Positions 17,229 to 24,347 of a DNA stretch of 64,000 bases are shown here, in pieces. The notes below the pieces were generated by a model. The model was not told where the DNA came from. It saw only the letters and a list, made by a program, of their open reading frames with translations, and searched no databases. The DNA is taken from contig NZ_JALQCS010000001.1 in the NCBI RefSeq assembly GCF_023277115.1, positions 924,001 through 988,000 on the forward strand, given 5' to 3'. Positions within the stretch are counted from its first letter, which is position 1, and every line of letters begins with the position of its first letter. The stretch is from Acidithiobacillus acidisediminis. GTDB lineage: Bacteria > Pseudomonadota > Gammaproteobacteria > Acidithiobacillales > Acidithiobacillaceae. Both the position numbers and the translations under genes were made by a program.

Positions 17229-18376
17229 AGGGCCAGCTCCTCGGCGATGCGCTCCAGGTATGCCCGCATGACGCGCAGATACTGTGGAATCGGCAAAAGG
17301 AAAGAATCGTGACCATGCTGGGCCTCGATCTCGGCGTAGCTTACGGGGACACCGGCGGTATACAGGGCCTGGACGATCTCGCGCGAGCGCTCCGGCGAAA
17401 AACGCCAGTCGCTGCTGAAGGAGACCACGAGAAATTTGGCTTGCACTGCGGCAAACGTGGCGGCGAGATCCCCGCCATGTGCCGCCGCTGGGTCGAAATA
17501 GTCCAGGGCCTTGGTGATGAACAGGTAGCTATTGGCGTCGAATTGGTCGACAAAGCGTGAGCCTTGATAGCGAAGATAGCTCTCGACCTCGAAGTCGACC
17601 TCAAAGCCGTAGGACAGCGCCTTGCCACCGCGGGTCTCGCGACCAAATTTTTTTCCCATCGCATCATCGGAAAGATAGGTAATGTGCCCGATCATCCGTG
17701 CCAGAGCCAGGCCGCGTTGCGGTTTGACTCCCGCCTGGTAGTAGCGACCAGCGTGAAAGTCTGGATCACTCATGATGGCCTGACGACAGACCTCGTTGAA
17801 GCCAATGTTTTGGGCGCTCAATTTCGGCGCTGCGGCTATCACAACGGCATGGTGCAGGCGTTGGGGATGATCAATCGCCCATTGCAGTACCTGCATACCC
17901 CCGAGGCTGCCACCGATCACCGCCGCCCAACAGTCGATGCCCAAATAGTCACTCAAGGCAATCTGCGTCTGCACCCAATCGGTGACGGTGACCATGGGGA
18001 AATCCAGACCCCAAGGCTCGCCAGTAGCGGGGTTGATACTCGCTGGCCCCGTCGAGCCGCGGCAAGACCCCAGAAAGTTGCTGCATACCACGAAAAATCG
18101 TCGCGTATCGATGGGTTTGCCCGGGCCGATCATGGTATCCCACCAGCCGGGTTTGCGATCATCCAAGCTGTGATAGCCCGCCGCGTGATGATCGCCGGAT
18201 AGGGCGTGGCAGATCAGGATTGCGTTACTGTGTGCGGCGTTGAGTTCGCCGTAGCACTCATAGCGCAGGGTATATCCTGGCAGAGTGCGCCCCGAGGTCA
18301 GCGCGAGAGGTTCAGGTACATGGAAATCCAGGGGTTGTACTACGCCCACCGAATCCTCGGGATTGGTCTCCGGCAT
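17225..18376 (-). CDS. metX: Homoserine O-acyltransferase (MetX; acetyl or succinyl)
   Basis: This enzyme acylates homoserine, committing it to methionine synthesis. The alpha/beta hydrolase of 383 residues has the nucleophile elbow GGSLGGMQ, the Asp in SSDWRFSP and the His in HGHDSFL. Pairing with metW favours the succinyl-using MetXS type found in proteobacteria; the acyl donor cannot be proven from the sequence alone. It opens the metX-metW-GST-ubiE-metE operon. The 95 bases upstream contain no obvious terminator, so read-through from the ABC transporter operon is possible. Confidence 0.94.
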
Positions 18377-18471
18377 CGTTGTCCTTACAGGAGTGAAGCA
18401 AGACGTGAGAGTCTACTGAGGCGCCGGTCAGGGAACAAGCAATCGCCCGTTGTTCGCGAACCGCGACGAGC

Positions 18472-18632
18472 TCAAGTGGTAGTACGCACCACGGCAGCGC
18501 CTGCATGTACCCCTGCTCCGACCACATCCACCGCACCATCGGCGGCGGTACCCACGGCATCCCCCACCGTCGCACAGCCGCTCAAGGCGTTCATGAATAG
18601 CAGCAGCACAGCAATCAGAGACCCATGCGCAA
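18472..18632 (-). pseudogene. Entericidin-like small lipoprotein, apparently frameshifted in its signal peptide
   Basis: On the minus strand a frame ending at 18472 encodes a hydrophobic run, the lipobox LSGC and a short Gly/Ala/Val-rich mature part (ATVGDAVGTAADGAVDVVGA), typical of entericidin-like lipoproteins. In that frame the only start is a GTG at 18609, giving 45 residues with no basic residue and no ribosome-binding site. A TTG (18632) or ATG (18626) with GGAG suitably placed upstream lies one frame away and reaches a stop after a few codons. One extra base after codon GGT-CTC would restore a textbook signal starting MRMGL. It is either a recent pseudogene, a sequencing error, or a GTG-started gene. 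Confidence 0.42.
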
Positions 18633-18638
18633 GGCAAT

Positions 18639-18803
18639 CTACTCCAGTTTACCCCAGTCGTTTTGGGGCAGCTTGGCAAATTTCCCGGAGTATACCTGCT
18701 TTTTCCTCTGAAAAGAGACGGGGACGGCCTGGGCGGCCAGTAGTAGTGCCCACAGAGCGGCAAGGCTCAGGGCGGATAGGGTGCGGCGCAACGACGTGGT
18801 CAA
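18639..18803 (-). CDS. Small exported protein, 54 residues, unknown function
   Basis: Starting 24 bases after the permease stop, a TTG-initiated frame encodes a clear signal peptide: basic LRR, a long Leu/Ala core and AAQA before a likely cleavage site. A 28-residue basic mature part follows (VPVSFQRKKQVYSGKFAKLP, then QNDWGKLE). A second TTG at 18791 is an alternative start. The ribosome-binding site is weak. It would be the fourth gene of the Pho-box operon. I recognise no family, and no homology evidence is available to me. Confidence 0.45.
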   Translation of the reverse strand: MTTSLRRTLSALSLAALWALLLAAQAVPVSFQRKKQVYSGKFAKLPQNDWGKLE

Positions 18804-18827
18804 CCACTTTTTTGATGGAACCGGGGT

Positions 18828-20444
18828 TCAGCGACGCAGGAGCGCGCCACGCGCGAGGCCGAGGATCAGCGCTGAACTGAAGATGCCGATGACCGACATG
18901 GCCATACCGTCACCGATGATGCCCTGCCGGAAATTGCCGTAGATGTAGGTTGAGATCACCTGGGTTCCGGCGGGTTGCAGCATCAGGGATGCGACCAACT
19001 CGCGCATGGACAGGGCAAAGACCACCGTCGCGCCCCCCACCAGCATGGGCCAGGCGATGGGGACTTGCACGCGCAGGACCGTATAGAAGGGGCTACCCCC
19101 ATGCACTCGGCCCGCCTGTTCCAGGTGCGGCGGGATCTGCGCCAGACCCGTGCGGGCATAGCGCAGGGCAAAGGGAAAGGTCCCGGTGGCATAGGCCACG
19201 GCAAGGATGATGGGATGACCAAAAATCGGCAGATTATTCCACGGCGCATTCCAGAACAGGATCATCCCCACCGCCAGGACCACGCCGGGGATCGCCATGG
19301 GTAGAGTGGCAAGCAGATCCACCAGGGCGGCGATGCGCCCTCCTCGGCGGACGATGTTCGCGGCCAGGAGGGCCGAGATCATGCCCGCCACGGCGACCAG
19401 GGCCGAGAGTTCCAGGCTGGTGCGCAGGGCGGCAAAGGCACTCGAGCCGTGGGATAGGACATGCTGATAGTGGTGCAGGGTGAAATTGCCCGCTTGCAGG
19501 CCCACGCTCAGGGCCTTCTCGAGGGAGATAGCGATCACCGCGCCCAGCGGCAACAGGGCAGCGATCAGCAAGAAGGCCAAAAGCGGCAGCATACTCCATA
19601 GATACCGTTGTTCTCTGGGCCGCTGCTGGATTTGGCCCTGATTGTTCTGCACCAGCGGCCGGTAGAGGAACCAGACCACCACCCCCATGGCGCAAAGTAC
19701 CAGACCAATGGCCGCCGCACGGGGTAAATTCACGGGCCAGACGTTGGTGGCGGCCTCGATGCTCGTGCTCAAAACCTGGACACCGGCATAGCCGGCCAGC
19801 AGCGCCGGCACACCAAACTCTGCCGAGGTATCGAGAAAGACCAGGAGCCCGGCGGCCGCCAGGGCAGGCAGCAGCAAGGGCAGGATGGCCAGACGAAAAG
19901 CCGCCAGCGGCCCGGCACCATGTACCCGCGCCGCCTGCAGCAAGCGAAAATTGCCATTTTCCAGGCTGGCCCGGAGCATGATGTAGACCAGGGGGGTGAG
20001 ATGCAACGCCATCACCATCCCCATCCCCCCCAGGGAGTACAGAAAGTGCTCCAAGGGGGTGCCAAACGCGTGGATCACCTGTTCGATCAATCCCATGGGA
20101 CCGGCCAGAAGGCTCCAGGCCTCAGCGGTGAGATAGGGCGGGATCAAAAAGGGGATCAGAATGAGGGCCTCCCACAGGGGCGTGAAGCGCGGGGGGGCAT
20201 AAAACAGCAAGAGGGCGAGGCCCAGCCCCATGGGCAGAGCAAAGAGCACCGCCAAACCCGCCATCCCGAGGGTTCCCGAGAGGGCCGTAAGAAAATGCCG
20301 GTCTACCCCCAACTGCAGCAAGGCCACGCCATGACTGTGGGTGGCATCGGGCTGCAGGGCCTCGTAGAGGATGCTGAGCAAGGGGGCCAGTACCAAGACC
20401 CCCAGGATCAGATAGACCAGCAGATGATTGAGCAGACGGCTCAC
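18828..20444 (-). CDS. ABC transporter permease, fused double-permease (FbpB-like)
   Basis: This is the inner-membrane component of a binding-protein importer. Its 538 residues contain two BPD_transp_1 modules, each with about six helices and an EAA-type loop (HGAGPLAAFRLAILPLLLPA and VHGGSPFYTVLRVQVPIAWP), as in FbpB/AfuB iron and PhnU/V-like permeases. A single chain carrying both halves explains why only one permease gene is present. The start overlaps the binding-protein stop (ATGA), so translation is coupled. The promoter context argues for a phosphorus-related substrate; protein similarity alone would suggest Fe(III). Confidence 0.9.
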   Translation of the reverse strand: MSRLLNHLLVYLILGVLVLAPLLSILYEALQPDATHSHGVALLQLGVDRHFLTALSGTLGMAGLAVLFALPMGLGLALLLFYAPPRFTPLWEALILIPFLIPPYLTAEAWSLLAGPMGLIEQVIHAFGTPLEHFLYSLGGMGMVMALHLTPLVYIMLRASLENGNFRLLQAARVHGAGPLAAFRLAILPLLLPALAAAGLLVFLDTSAEFGVPALLAGYAGVQVLSTSIEAATNVWPVNLPRAAAIGLVLCAMGVVVWFLYRPLVQNNQGQIQQRPREQRYLWSMLPLLAFLLIAALLPLGAVIAISLEKALSVGLQAGNFTLHHYQHVLSHGSSAFAALRTSLELSALVAVAGMISALLAANIVRRGGRIAALVDLLATLPMAIPGVVLAVGMILFWNAPWNNLPIFGHPIILAVAYATGTFPFALRYARTGLAQIPPHLEQAGRVHGGSPFYTVLRVQVPIAWPMLVGGATVVFALSMRELVASLMLQPAGTQVISTYIYGNFRQGIIGDGMAMSVIGIFSSALILGLARGALLRR

Positions 20445-21418
20445 TGGCCGAGGATGTCCTTCTTGAATTGGGCCTCGACGCCCGGTGCCTGGGCCGCCAG
20501 TTGGGTCCAGTTCACCTTCCAGGTCGGGAAGCTACCGATCTTGGCCATTACCGCCTTGGCCGGAATCCCTGCACGGGCGGGATAGAGATTGTTCTCGGCG
20601 ACCAGTTTTTGACCCGCCGGTGACAGGGCAAAGTTCACAAAGGCCTCGGCCAGCTTCTTGTTCGGCGCCGATTTCAGGATCAGGATGGGGCGAGGGATGA
20701 TCAGGGTGCCTTCCTTGGGGTAGATCAGGTCGACGGAGTTGCCCTGCACCTTGGCTGCCACCGCCGCGTGCCCAACACACTCCAGCATGCCGCTACGCTC
20801 ACCCGCGAGCACGGGCAACAGTGCGGCATGGTTGGTACCCGGCCAGACGGTGCCATTGGCCTTGAGCTGCTGCAGATACTGCCAGCCATGATTCCCGTAT
20901 TTTTCGATGAAGGCGACGAGGAAGCTGGATGCCGTGCCCGAGAGCAGCGGATTGGGGGCGGTGATGCGGTCCTTCCACTCGGGCTGGGTCAGGGCAAACC
21001 AACTGTCGGGCAACTTGGCCCCTTTGGGCAGGGCCTTGGTATTCATCACCATGGAGACCGTATCCAGACCATAGGGCAGGAAGGACGCATTTTCTTGCGC
21101 AGGTGCCACCAAGGTCTTCTCGATGGCTGACGGTCGGTAGTTGAAGACCATGCCCTGCTTAGCGAGGTCCAGACCCGCAGTCCATCCCGCGACCATCACC
21201 ACGTCGGCATGGGGATGATTGGCCTCGGCGGCCAGTCGGGCCATGACCTTACCGGTGCTGGAGGTCCAGACTTCGACATGGTCACCGGTCTTCTTGCTGA
21301 AGTCCCGGGCCAAGGCCTTGGCCAGGGTGGCCGGGGCAGCACTGTACAGGGTCAGGGTAGCGGCGGAGGCCGAACCGGCAAAGGCCAAACCCATCAGGGC
21401 GAGCAGGGCGCGTTTCAT
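20441..21418 (-). CDS. ABC transporter periplasmic substrate-binding protein (family 1/FbpA-like)
   Basis: This protein captures the solute in the periplasm for the adjacent permease. I start it at the ATG at 21418 (GGAG seven bases upstream), giving 325 residues with a signal peptide ending SASA. The mature protein begins ATLTLYSAAPATLAKALARD, the typical opening of FbpA/AfuA/PhnS-type binding proteins. The Tyr pair used by FbpA for iron is not evident to me near the C-terminal lobe, which weakens an iron assignment. The start overlaps the ATPase stop (ATGA). Confidence 0.9.
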   Translation of the reverse strand: MKRALLALMGLAFAGSASAATLTLYSAAPATLAKALARDFSKKTGDHVEVWTSSTGKVMARLAAEANHPHADVVMVAGWTAGLDLAKQGMVFNYRPSAIEKTLVAPAQENASFLPYGLDTVSMVMNTKALPKGAKLPDSWFALTQPEWKDRITAPNPLLSGTASSFLVAFIEKYGNHGWQYLQQLKANGTVWPGTNHAALLPVLAGERSGMLECVGHAAVAAKVQGNSVDLIYPKEGTLIIPRPILILKSAPNKKLAEAFVNFALSPAGQKLVAENNLYPARAGIPAKAVMAKIGSFPTWKVNWTQLAAQAPGVEAQFKKDILGQ

Positions 21419-22512
21419 GATGACTCCTTGGTAGAGGGGGTGGATTGCGGAATACACCAGCCGTGTTGCTGGCGGATTTTCCAACGGCGAGGGCCCAGGG
21501 CTCCATCGCGGGAATAGGCAAGGAACTCCTGGCCGTCGCTGGTCTGCAGTGCCAAGAGATAACGACCATCGTGCCAATGGGCATGATGCACCGTTGCCGT
21601 TGCGCCAGCGCCATCGCTGGGCTCGATCTCAATATCTCCAGGGCGCAGGAGCAGCGTGGCACGGGTGGCGCCATTGAGGGTGCGGGCAGCGGGCACTTGC
21701 AGGCGCTGCCCCTCCCAGTGCAGCAAGGCCTGTTCGCGCTGATGTTCGAGAACGGGAACCTGCAGGGCGCGGACCGAGCCACCTAGGCGGGCAACGATCA
21801 GGCTGTTCGGGCGCTGGTAGAGAGCTTCTGGGCTATCCCACTGCTCTAGACGTCCGGCATTCAGGACGCCAACTTTGGCCCCCAGGTAGAACGCCTCGCT
21901 CGGGTCGTGCGTAACGTGCAGGGCAGTGATGCCTTCATCCCGAAACAGACCATGGAGAAACTCCCGCAGATTTTCGCGCACGCCATGATCCAGGGCTGAC
22001 AGGGGCTCGTCCAAGAGTACGATACGGGGCTTGGCGATGATGGCGCGGGCGATGGCCACCCGCTGCTGTTGACCGCCAGACAACTCATGCGGGCGACGCT
22101 TGGCAGCAGCCAGAGGAATCGCCATGCGCTCCAACAGCGCCTGGGCGCGTGTGCGGTCCCGCGCCAGGCCACGTGCCCGCAACGGATACAGCACATTGTC
22201 GAGGACGCTGAGGTGCGGCCAAAGGGCGGCATCCTGAAAGACCATGCCAATCCCCCGTTTTTCCGGGGCCAGCCAGATCCGCTCGTCTCCCACGGTATCG
22301 CCAGCAATGGCAATCCGCCCTCGCTGGGGACGCAAGAGCCCCGCAATGGCTGCCAGCAGCGTGCTTTTGCCAGAACCCGACTCCCCCAGCAGACAGGCGT
22401 AACTGCCGCTTTCCTGCTCCAGACTCACATCCGCCAAAACCGGCCGGCCGCCAAGCTCGACGCTGAGTTTCTGCACGCTCAGGCCGGCGGCCGAAGGCAC
22501 CTCAGAAGGCAT
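21415..22512 (-). CDS. ABC transporter ATP-binding protein (FbpC/PotA-like)
   Basis: This is the energising subunit of the importer. In 365 residues it has Walker A GESGSGKST, a Q-loop (VFQDAALWPHLSV), the signature LSGGQQQRVAIARA, Walker B IVLLDEP, and an H-loop (HVTHDPSEA). A C-terminal TOBE-like regulatory domain follows (about residues 250-345). Domain layout matches the FbpC/PotA/PhnT group. The gene overlaps the 35-codon leader frame by 11 bases at its start and the binding-protein gene by four at its end, so the whole cassette is translationally chained. Confidence 0.92.
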   Translation of the reverse strand: MPSEVPSAAGLSVQKLSVELGGRPVLADVSLEQESGSYACLLGESGSGKSTLLAAIAGLLRPQRGRIAIAGDTVGDERIWLAPEKRGIGMVFQDAALWPHLSVLDNVLYPLRARGLARDRTRAQALLERMAIPLAAAKRRPHELSGGQQQRVAIARAIIAKPRIVLLDEPLSALDHGVRENLREFLHGLFRDEGITALHVTHDPSEAFYLGAKVGVLNAGRLEQWDSPEALYQRPNSLIVARLGGSVRALQVPVLEHQREQALLHWEGQRLQVPAARTLNGATRATLLLRPGDIEIEPSDGAGATATVHHAHWHDGRYLLALQTSDGQEFLAYSRDGALGPRRWKIRQQHGWCIPQSTPSTKESS

Positions 22513-22609
22513 ACTGGAGCATCAGCCAGTTGTTGTAGTGACCACGCATGGTGAGGGCTGGAAAGCACATGCTCCGGATCGCGAGCAAGAAATTACGGAA
22601 GCGGCGCAT
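22502..22609 (-). CDS. 35-residue leader reading frame overlapping the ABC ATPase start
   Basis: The frame opens with ATG after AGAGG and encodes MRRFRNFLLAIRSM, then ends HYNNWLMLQYAF. Its stop lies within the ATPase gene, overlapping it by 11 bases, so its translation should deliver ribosomes to the ATPase start. The last twelve residues, with alternating hydrophobics and a terminal Phe, look like the final beta-strand of an outer-membrane porin, and the first residues like a signal peptide start. It could be a deletion remnant of a Pho-regulated porin or simply a coupling leader. Coding status is unproven. Confidence 0.45.
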   Translation of the reverse strand: MRRFRNFLLAIRSMCFPALTMRGHYNNWLMLQYAF

Positions 22610-22642
22610 TTGGACCTCTTAGCGGATAATATTTAATGCCGC

Positions 22643-22698
22643 ATGTTAGCGCCAAAATATGACAGAATGATGAAACTTTGATGAACTTTTTATGACAA
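22643..22698 (-). promoter_or_regulatory. Tandem Pho-box promoter of the ABC transporter operon
   Basis: On the minus strand four TCAT cores recur at exact 11-base intervals (plus-strand ATGA at 22659, 22670, 22681 and 22692). The outer units read TTGTCATAAAA and CTGTCATATTT, very close to the PhoB consensus unit CTGTCATAAAT; the inner units are weaker (GTTCAT, TTTCAT). Ten bases after the last CTGTCAT comes a -10-like TAACAT (22643-22648), the spacing known for E. coli Pho promoters, where the box replaces the -35. The leader frame begins 34 bases downstream of the -10. PhoB control is therefore strongly suggested. Confidence 0.75.
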
Positions 22699-22779
22699 GC
22701 GCAGTTTCTGTGCGAACTATGCTAGAACTTGGTTGTCGTGGAAATGGAGCCGGAGTCCTGCAGCGAGCGTGCAGTGCTT

Positions 22780-22989
22780 TTATTCCCCCAAGCTGTGCGC
22801 AAAGGTGGCAATGACTGGCAGGAAGCCAATGAACAGGATAAAAATAAAAGCGTAGGCAGAGCTCAGCAGGGCTACTCCGATGCTGCACTCCCAGAAACAG
22901 CCGAGGGTGAAGAGCAACCAGACGCTAAAGGCGATGGCAGCACTGTACTTTAATGCCTTGAGGAATTTGCGCTTTTCCGTTGCGTTCAT
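22780..22989 (-). CDS. Small two-helix membrane protein, 69 residues, unknown
   Basis: I take the ATG at 22989 (AGGG five bases upstream) as start. The product begins MNATEKRKFLKALKY, basic and cytosolic, followed by two hydrophobic helices (about residues 16-34 and 36-60) and a short polar end. The frame is open further upstream but would then run through the terminator and tRNA-His region. It lies downstream of the tRNA-His terminator and upstream of the Pho-box promoter, so it is probably monocistronic. I do not recognise the family. Confidence 0.6.
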   Translation of the reverse strand: MNATEKRKFLKALKYSAAIAFSVWLLFTLGCFWECSIGVALLSSAYAFIFILFIGFLPVIATFAHSLGE

Positions 22990-23056
22990 CGAACCCTGCC
23001 AGTGCCGCTGATCCCGGGCTCCGGGACCCTTTACGCCCGTTGTTTCGATTGGTATG

Positions 23057-23088
23057 AAAAAAGGCCCTAGAAAGCATCCTAAGACCTT
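23057..23088 (-). terminator. Terminator after tRNA-His
   Basis: On the minus strand AAGGTCTTAG pairs with CTAGGGCCTT over ten positions (two G-U wobbles) around an eight-base loop, followed by a run of T. It begins nine bases beyond the tRNA CCA end. Confidence 0.85.
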
Positions 23089-23096
23089 GTTTTGTA

Positions 23097-23173
23097 TGGG
23101 GTGACTGATGGGGCTCGAACCCACGACAACCGGAATCACAATCCGGGGCTCTACCTACTGAGCTACAGTCACC
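23097..23173 (-). tRNA. tRNA-His (GTG anticodon)
   Basis: The cloverleaf is complete. An eight-pair acceptor GGTGACTG/CAGTCACC includes the extra G-1:C73 pair diagnostic of tRNA-His. The anticodon loop sits between CCGGA and TCCGG with anticodon GTG, the T-loop is GTTCGAGCC-like, and CCA is encoded. A promoter lies just upstream and a terminator just downstream. Confidence 0.97.
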
Positions 23174-23184
23174 GAAGAACGCTT

Positions 23185-23214
23185 ATGATAGCGCTCCGCG
23201 TGCCGCTTTCGCAA
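23185..23214 (-). promoter_or_regulatory. Probable tRNA-His promoter
   Basis: TTGCGA (23209-23214) and TATCAT (23185-23190) on the minus strand are 18 bases apart and end 11 bases before the tRNA. The position suits initiation just before the mature 5' end, independent of nrdAB. Confidence 0.5.
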
Positions 23215-23231
23215 TATCCTCAGACTTCGGC

Positions 23232-24347
23232 TCAATCCCAGTTCAGCGCGCCGCCTGTCTGATATTCGGTGACCCGCGTCTCGAAGAAGTTCTTTTCCTT
23301 CTTCAGATCCATCATTTCGCTCATCCAGGGGAATGGATTCTGGATACCTTCCCACTGCGGTTTGAGGCCGATCTGACTCAGCCGCCGGTTGCCGATGAAG
23401 TGGACATAGTCCTTGAACATCGGTGCGTTCAGGCCAAGCACGCCGCGCGGCATGGTGTCATCGGCATAGGCGCATTCCAGCTCCACGCCGTGTCGAATGA
23501 GGCGGATGATTTCTTCCTGAAATTCCTCGGTCCACAAGTGCGGATTCTCGATTTTGATCTGATTGATCATATCGATACCAAAATTGCAGTGCATGGACTC
23601 GTCGCGCAGGATGTACTGGTATTGCTCGGCCGCGCCGACCATCTTGTTCTGCCGCCCCATGGCGAGGATCTGGCTGAAGCCCACATAGAAGAACATGCCT
23701 TCCATGATGGTAGCGAAGACGATCAGCGAGCGCAGGAGCAGCTGATCATTTTCTGTGGTCCCCGTCTTGAAATTCGGATCGGCGAGTACCTCGATGAAGG
23801 GAATGAGAAAATCATCCTTTGCGCGCACCGAGGGTACCTCATGGTACATATTGAAGATTTCGCCCTCGTCCAGACCCAGCGACTCGACGATGTACTGATA
23901 GGCGTGGGTGTGAATCGCCTCTTCAAAGCCTTGGCGCAGCAGATACTGGCGGCATTCCGGCGCGGTGATGTGGCGATAGGTACCCAGCACGATATTGTTG
24001 GCGGCAAGGCTGTCGGCGGTCACAAAAAATCCGAGATTGCGTTTGATGATGCGCCGCTCATCATCGCTTAACCCCTTGGGATCCTTCCATAGCGCGATGT
24101 CCCGCGCCATCTGCACTTCCTGCGGCATCCAGTGATTGGCGCAGGCCGCCAAGTACTTGTCCCAGGCCCATTGATACTTGAAGGGCACGAGCTGATTCAC
24201 GTCGGCCTGGCCATTGATGATGCGTTTATCCTCAGCCCGCACACGGGCAAAGCTGTTGGCCTGGATGCCAATATCCCCTGCACCGGGCTTCTCGTGGTAA
24301 GCGGGCATGGTGACTTTTCTCGTGCTCTCGTCGTTGAATTCTAACAT
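23232..24347 (-). CDS. nrdB: Ribonucleoside-diphosphate reductase, beta subunit (class I)
   Basis: NrdB holds the diiron-oxygen radical cofactor for aerobic dNTP synthesis. The start is the ATG at 24347 (GGAGAT upstream), giving 371 residues; a TTG five codons upstream is less likely. The metal and radical residues are visible: Asp in TADSLAANN, then EEAIHTHAY, where the Tyr four residues after the His corresponds to the E. coli radical Tyr122. Overall similarity is to the Chlamydia-like (class Ic) subgroup, yet Asp and Tyr are retained, so a tyrosyl-radical class Ia mechanism is expected. It lies 24 bases after nrdA. Confidence 0.95.

Follow-up and report, generated by a model that had tools for sequence, protein, structure and literature searches.

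Introduction

Promoters of the Pho regulon, known from Escherichia coli and other bacteria (PMC4415409, in the part of that review accessible to us), are the closest described counterpart of the promoter considered here. Shared features are direct repeats of 11 nucleotides with a TGTCAT-type core, a PhoB encoded in the genome, and further sites of this kind beside other phosphate genes; the set of controlled genes differs, and the PhoB sites reported below are predicted ones.

The transporter behind the promoter invites comparison with four described systems. AfuABC of Actinobacillus and enteric bacteria is a hexose/heptose-phosphate importer that was once predicted to carry iron, and P5PA, also of Actinobacillus, binds pyridoxal-5-phosphate (accessible parts of PMC4546632 and PMC8427247, respectively). 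PhnS2-PhnT2-PhnU2 is a putative 2-aminoethylphosphonate importer, while FbpABC and HitABC are ferric importers.

Each of these resembles the locus in part. AfuA belongs to the same superfamily as the binding protein described here, is its top solved relative by profile, and shares with it most phosphate contacts and His205, but Asp206 and Glu229 of AfuA are not kept. Moreover, relatives of the window add porin and phosphatase-like partners to the importer, and the window carries a Pho box, whereas the accessible part of the AfuA paper (PMC4546632) mentions neither "PhoB" nor "Pho regulon". P5PA is the top solved relative by single sequence, and its Thr at position 37 and the His-Ala at its ring site recur in the window; it ranks only fifth by profile, however, and the ligand of the window protein is a predicted one. 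The PhnS2-PhnT2-PhnU2 system shows a family likeness in binding protein, ATPase and permease, but all of the window proteins fall below the curated cut-offs and the genome lacks both PhnJ and any PhnW over its cut-off. The ferric importers share the binding-protein superfamily and rank second by profile, yet their Tyr-Tyr pair and other iron ligands are not kept, and no Fur box was found.

Here we analyse a locus within a 64,000-nucleotide stretch of the Acidithiobacillus acidisediminis genome (the window), together with its counterparts in a sample of 40 genomes, the window's own included; the relatives chosen by name are Acidithiobacillus and Candidatus Igneacidithiobacillus. We read it as a PhoB-activated operon that would import a small molecule bearing phosphate, most probably a phosphate monoester, and that has lost its outer genes in this genome; we give this model as a whole a probability of about two in three. 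The literature searched yielded neither an earlier description of the operon nor a paper joining PhoB, the Pho box and Acidithiobacillus, and the terms afu, iron and fbp are absent from PMC5127829.

Results

The promoter

The features of the locus are collected in Table 1.

Table 1. Features of the importer locus, in window coordinates.
Feature	Position	Strand	Basis
Four PhoB half-sites (two tandem Pho boxes, 11-bp spacing), predicted	22655..22698	minus	pattern, matrix and conservation
-10 hexamer TAACAT, 6 nt after the fourth 11-mer	22643..22648	minus	comparison with own-genome sites
AAGAGG, Shine-Dalgarno-like, before the porin-remnant ORF	22615..22620	minus	by reading
35-codon in-frame remnant of an OprD-family porin gene (MRRFRNF...NNWLMLQYAF, stop)	22502..22609	minus	intact porin in relatives
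ABC importer ATPase	21415..22512	minus	family matches
Periplasmic solute-binding protein, AfuA/P5PA/FbpA superfamily	20441..21418 (start ATG 21418, by reading)	minus	family and structure-sequence matches
Fused permease, 538 aa, two BPD_transp_1 stretches	18828..20444	minus	family matches
Remnant of a secreted histidine-phosphatase-like gene (signal-peptide segment and last 26 residues)	18639..18797	minus	relatives' DNA

Read along the minus strand, the array is TTGTCATAAAA AGTTCATCAAA GTTTCATCATT CTGTCATATTT, followed by TGGCGC and the -10 hexamer. The initial annotation had described four TCAT cores at an exact spacing of 11 bp with a -10 element 10 bp after the last core, and had taken them for tandem PhoB boxes standing in for a -35. 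The geometry is confirmed, and the sites, a matrix search and conservation all support the regulatory reading.

A pattern scan locates a single zero-mismatch TCAT tetrad in the window, and the same array is the only such tetrad in the whole 2,814,352-base (2.81-Mb) genome, for which about 0.0002 would be expected by our own arithmetic from the base composition of the window. When up to three mismatches are allowed, the window contains three matches where 0.36 would be expected, two of the three being this one array displaced by a unit, and the genome 29 (12 forward, 17 reverse) against two for the reversed pattern. On a half-site matrix derived from eight other Pho-type sites of the genome, which is partly circular because these training sites were picked with the TCAT pattern itself, the importer array scores 49.5 bits, within the range of the training sites (35.4-56.8). 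No unrelated place listed in the window exceeds -0.3 bits on this matrix, and the top score in 100 first-order Markov simulated windows was 18.2 bits. By eye, seven of the eight other sites also have a -10-like hexamer 6 nt after the fourth 11-mer, the weakest being CATACT at L011; the eighth array, at L022, is displaced by a unit and consists of three half-sites.

Conservation of the half-sites upstream of orthologous operons, when checked, was borne out in 13 of 13 genomes with DNA available upstream of the operon (the window and 12 relatives), the Pho box being detected by scan in 12 and by eye in one. G003 lies outside this count, as its contig starts 53 bp upstream of the porin. All four half-sites read TCAT or TCAC in the window and in G001, G002 and G007, where they precede the porin gene, and three of the four are kept in G006. 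The exception to the scan, G009, has a degenerate tetrad, TTGTCATAAAA ATGCAAGAAAA ATGACATAAAA GGTTCATATTT, followed by 6 nt and TATCAT. All seven genomes of genus g2 carry two half-sites (TTGTCATAAAACTGTCA[TC] or CTGTCATAAAACTGTCAT) before the operon, whether or not the porin is present; for one of the relatives, G016, the scan also lists a second, chance-looking chain of two half-sites further upstream. Among five upstream regions from the window's own genus, pairwise identity is 28.2% above the array (117 columns), 68.4% inside it and 44.1% below it, reaching 82.5% at the 16 core positions; these figures come from an ungapped alignment anchored on the array, which favours the array, although an unanchored MAFFT alignment gives the same contrast. 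In A. montserratensis and A. marinus (L062 and L063), a gene for an Nramp-like metal transporter was seen by eye immediately ahead of the Pho promoter.

A chance run of TCAT units with no PhoB function has in its favour that PhoB binding is here predicted from sequence alone. Against it stand the uniqueness of the exact tetrad in the genome, its presence before the orthologous operon in relatives despite diverged flanks, and a -10 spacing equal to that at most other Pho-type sites of the genome. On the tetrad counts of window and genome, together with the matrix score, we reject a chance origin of the array, and we regard a functionless array as extremely improbable. Control of the importer promoter by PhoB is a prediction that we hold to be near certain.

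An Rfam search at gathering thresholds (18300-23300) returned no RNA element in the operon region other than a tRNA gene (23100-23172, minus strand). This precedes a small ORF resembling a membrane protein (window 22780-23172); as listed (22780-23139) the ORF overlaps the tRNA, and its true start is probably later.

The Pho regulon of the genome

PhoB was searched for and is present: one of 20 matches to the PhoB model exceeds the curated cut-off (313.8 against 296.2 bits). The ORF adjoining phoB, which overlaps it as listed, contains by eye the histidine-kinase motif HELRSPL, and regulator and partner kinase are both found in the genome, the former by curated model and the latter by motif. 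The genes tested beside the eight other arrays match, in Pfam, PBP_like_2 (pstS-type by sequence), Porin_O_P, Sugar_tr/MFS, a GNAT acyltransferase, MotA_ExbB, and a Trans_reg_C protein next to a metallophosphatase. One array is flanked by an OprD porin and a Phytase-like protein, one on each side, and a beta-propeller-looking gene beside one array has a weak Pfam match below the cut-off. This gene set is the make-up of an ordinary Pho regulon.

The Trans_reg_C gene (L014:650-1507, about C1:2053863-2054720) encodes a protein with this domain at its C-terminus, a hydrophobic N-terminus and a weak match to the PhoB model (73 bits). A Pho array lies at its 5' end and the metallophosphatase gene is on the other strand; the product is perhaps a membrane-bound PhoB-type regulator.

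The operon in relatives

That the genes encode an importer of the Fbp/Phn superfamily, as initially annotated, is supported by the family matches. The binding protein has a match at E ≤ 0.001 in 21 of the 40 genomes, and in 14 of them at an identity of at least 59%, including six of the eight genomes in the window's genus. In all 14 (the window and 13 relatives) the ATPase and binding-protein genes are neighbours in the same order.

The outer genes are more variable. An uninterrupted porin gene, whose product matches OprD (E 1.8e-10) and also OpdO structures, stands upstream of the ATPase in six relatives (G001, G002, G003, G006, G009 and G016), and in G007 the porin is split by an insert. In Acidithiobacillus sp. 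YTS05, an insert of about 1.2 kb (L060:1959-3130) splits the operon's porin gene and holds two reverse-strand ORFs that by eye resemble an IS3-type transposase pair. The upstream stretch contains no porin match in G008, G015, G017, G018, G021 and G023, and in the window there is no porin in the stretch beyond the remnant. The nearest porin elsewhere in the window's genome is a paralog at C1:635581-636834, 49% identical to the relatives' porin and with a Pho array of its own (636951-636998); here (L008, about C1:635581-638334) the array lies between the Phytase-like and OprD porin genes, which are on the same strand. Porin paralogs at 46-51% identity are common in the relatives too.

Downstream of the permease, a full-length phosphatase-like gene is found in G002, G007, G008, G016, G017, G018, G021 and G023. 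The contig of G001 ends inside this gene and that of G015 inside the permease, a full-length copy of the phosphatase-like gene being found on another contig of the latter. In G003 the gene is reduced to a truncated piece that contains a stop, and in G006 and G009 it was found neither in the stretch nor in the genome. A phosphatase-like gene at 60% identity also occurs in a genome with no binding-protein match (G014:C24:315835-316470).

In the window's genome, the remnant listed in Table 1 is all of the phosphatase-like gene that was found. It joins ...LLAAQAVP to VSFQ..., and at its start position an ACG replaces the ATG of relatives, though a TTG in the same frame follows two codons later. 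An origin of the deletion in short repeats was considered and dropped, since the relatives' DNA does not have the same repeat at both edges. In the relatives' protein, R32-H33-G34 and H146 are invariant (8/8). Profile comparison with His_Phos_1 members gave 56.4% over 33 columns, a match which is the RHG segment alone, and 58.6% over 30 columns, with controls at 0.1-1.1%; the protein has no sequence match in Pfam (His_Phos_1 included), NCBIfam or the PDB. The RHG segment and one conserved His are what suggest a phosphatase, and we treat this function as putative.

As read from these sequences, a conserved Pho operon is present at the locus in partly stripped form.

The porin remnant

The first ORF after the promoter is the porin remnant, which reads MRRFRNFLLAIRSMCFPALTMRGHYNNWLMLQYAF before its stop; the intact porins of relatives end in YNRLMLQYAF and a stop. 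Its end overlaps the start of the ATPase gene by 11 nt. The ATPase ATG likewise falls among the final codons of the ORF before it in G002, G003, G006 and G007, as well as in the porin-less G015 and G021, and in none of these genomes, the window's included, was a Shine-Dalgarno sequence seen by reading before this ATG. G001 has the same DNA at the junction of porin and ATPase, but its ATPase aligns only from residue 43. The remnant in G015 and G021 is 55 codons long, with the start of the porin joined in frame to its tail, while in G008, G017, G018 and G023 only 11 codons and a stop are left and the ATPase start is separate from the porin end.

The porin remnant may act as a translational coupler for the ATPase. 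The ATPase start falls inside the remnant, without a visible ribosome-binding site of its own, and this may be why the remnant is retained. Under the assumption, made without a tree, of one event per group, the porin deletions with a remnant overlapping the ATPase start amount to two events, both in frame (the window; G015 and G021 together), and the non-overlapping group of G008, G017, G018 and G023 to one. We do not claim the in-frame scars as proof of selection: by chance alone, both events would preserve the frame with a probability of 1 in 9, and the frame is likewise preserved in the phosphatase remnant, which no importer gene follows.

The binding protein

By single sequence, the nearest solved relatives of the binding protein are P5PA (67.2 bits), AfuA (65.0), 8x1a (58.6; deposited as an iron(III) binder) and ferric HitA (55.5). 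As the order by profile is AfuA (83.1 bits), HitA (77.1), 8x1a (71.7) and, in fifth place, P5PA (66.2), ferric binders are about as near as ester binders. Contact residues were compared, those of AfuA and P5PA being taken from the accessible parts of PMC4546632 and PMC8427247 and mapped through the profile alignment, with numbering that starts after the initial Met.

Four of the seven AfuA phosphate contacts are identical in the window protein (G38 at G55, S148 at S159, G149 at G160 and T150 at T161). Two changes are conservative, namely AfuA S37 to T54, a Thr as in P5PA, and AfuA S184 (P5PA S183) to T194; Thr60 and Gly185 of AfuA are changed to G77 and N195. T54, G55, S159, G160, T161 and T194 are invariant in the aligned orthologs (9 of the 14 were aligned). 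Among the critical sugar residues of AfuA one in three is kept (H205 at H216, against D206 to A217 and E229 to I240). Y103 aligns with G116, next to Y115; S9, T11 and G36 are replaced by A26, P28 and S53, and Q269 falls in an unaligned place. Since D206 and E229 are not kept, the protein would not be an AfuA-type hexose-phosphate binder. A kept phosphate site combined with a changed ring site, as in P5PA relative to AfuA, makes a phosphorylated ligand other than a hexose phosphate our best guess.

The Tyr-Tyr pair of HitA corresponds to G215-H216, its first-lobe His to P28 and its first-lobe Glu to A76, the HitA residues being those that we take to be iron ligands. All four positions of the window protein are invariant in the nine aligned orthologs. 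The AlphaFold model of the binding protein has a mean pLDDT of 42.5, too poor for pocket geometry, and the models obtained (means of 42.5 and 43.4) were too poor for fold searches.

Discussion

We favour a phosphate ester of some kind as the cargo, a preference tempered by the second rank of HitA by profile.

The foremost of the rival cargoes, if a minor one in our estimation, is a phosphonate of the 2-aminoethylphosphonate type, which the initial annotation had put forward. PhnS2 and PhnU2 are the best NCBIfam matches of the binding protein and the permease, PhnT2 is second for the ATPase, and a paper on 2-aminoethylphosphonate use in Pseudomonas putida counts PhoBR among the master regulators that it discusses (accessible part of PMC9311074). 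These three matches nevertheless fall far below their curated cut-offs (107.4 of 392.75, 148.1 of 593.25 and 231.5 of 457.7 bits), and no PhnS or PhnS2 model reaches its own, the two remaining ones giving 79.2 against 310 and 67.2 against 395.3 bits. The search for a phosphonate pathway covered PhnJ and PhnW. PhnJ, of the C-P lyase, is missing from 21 of the 25 genomes in which it was sought, that of the window among them, and from six of the nine operon-bearing genomes in that set (G000-G003, G006-G009 and G015, of which G001 is only 69% complete), the bearers being G007, G008 and G015. No PhnW exceeded the cut-off in 12 genomes, although none did in the control genomes either. A. ferrooxidans has a C-P lyase cluster without a phosphonate permease, according to the accessible part of PMC2621215. 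The importer might fill that role in the three PhnJ-bearing relatives, but this cannot explain the operon in genomes that lack PhnJ, and the phosphonate proposal was not upheld.

Next in rank, and also improbable, is a bare oxyanion such as inorganic phosphate or pyrophosphate. Retention of most phosphate-contacting positions alongside loss of most AfuA ring contacts would suit it, but the genome already has Pho-type sites before a pstS-type gene and a Porin_O_P porin, and inorganic phosphate serves the superfamily's ferric binders as a co-ligand of iron. Ferric iron itself, carried by an importer of the FbpABC/HitABC type that was recruited to the Pho regulon, for example on account of iron-phosphate co-precipitation, ranks behind both and is unlikely. 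The binding protein does belong to a ferric-binder superfamily in which HitA comes second by profile, and several iron-transporter genes are placed in the Pho regulon of Sinorhizobium meliloti (accessible part of the review PMC4415409, citing Yuan et al. 2006). In that species, however, phosphate stress is also reported to repress iron-uptake genes in a phoB-independent manner (accessible part of PMC3596328). The HitA ligand positions are occupied in the window protein by other, invariant residues, and the best 19-mer match to a Fur box at 22501-22800 is 10/19, no better than in shuffles. An iron annotation made by similarity would probably be wrong.

On our preferred reading of phosphate-ester uptake, phosphorylated PhoB would bind the four half-sites in tandem under phosphate starvation and would recruit sigma-70 RNA polymerase to the promoter, in which a -10 is present but a -35 is lacking. 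In relatives the fuller operon provides an OprD-type outer-membrane porin and, besides the ABC importer, a secreted protein that carries a histidine-phosphatase motif. Deletions have reduced the porin and phosphatase-like genes of this genome to short remnants and left promoter and importer intact; passage across the outer membrane may here depend on the second OprD-type porin, which has a Pho array of its own.

The system is known in kind; its porin and phosphatase-like partners and their remnants are new here. More tentatively, and with less than even odds in our view, the locus may belong to a dedicated organic-phosphate operon of the Acidithiobacillia, comprising an OprD porin, an AfuA/P5PA-like importer with a ligand of its own and a secreted member of an undescribed histidine-phosphatase-like family, from which deletions would repeatedly strip the outer genes while a porin tail is kept as translational coupler of the ATPase.

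Iron-transporter names are easily given by similarity in this superfamily, and AfuABC shows that such a name can hide a phosphate-ester importer (accessible part of PMC4546632). The question has a particular setting in this group, the best-studied member of which, A. ferrooxidans, meets very high concentrations of soluble iron (accessible part of PMC2621215). Promoter, pocket residues and operon partners together point to a phosphorus role, in support of the earlier suggestion of a phosphorus compound, rather than iron, as the likelier cargo, and may guide the annotation of such importers. The locus also serves as a case of operon decay: the outer genes were lost repeatedly while the core was retained, which hints at the most important part of the operon, and the remnants offer a natural test of translational coupling.
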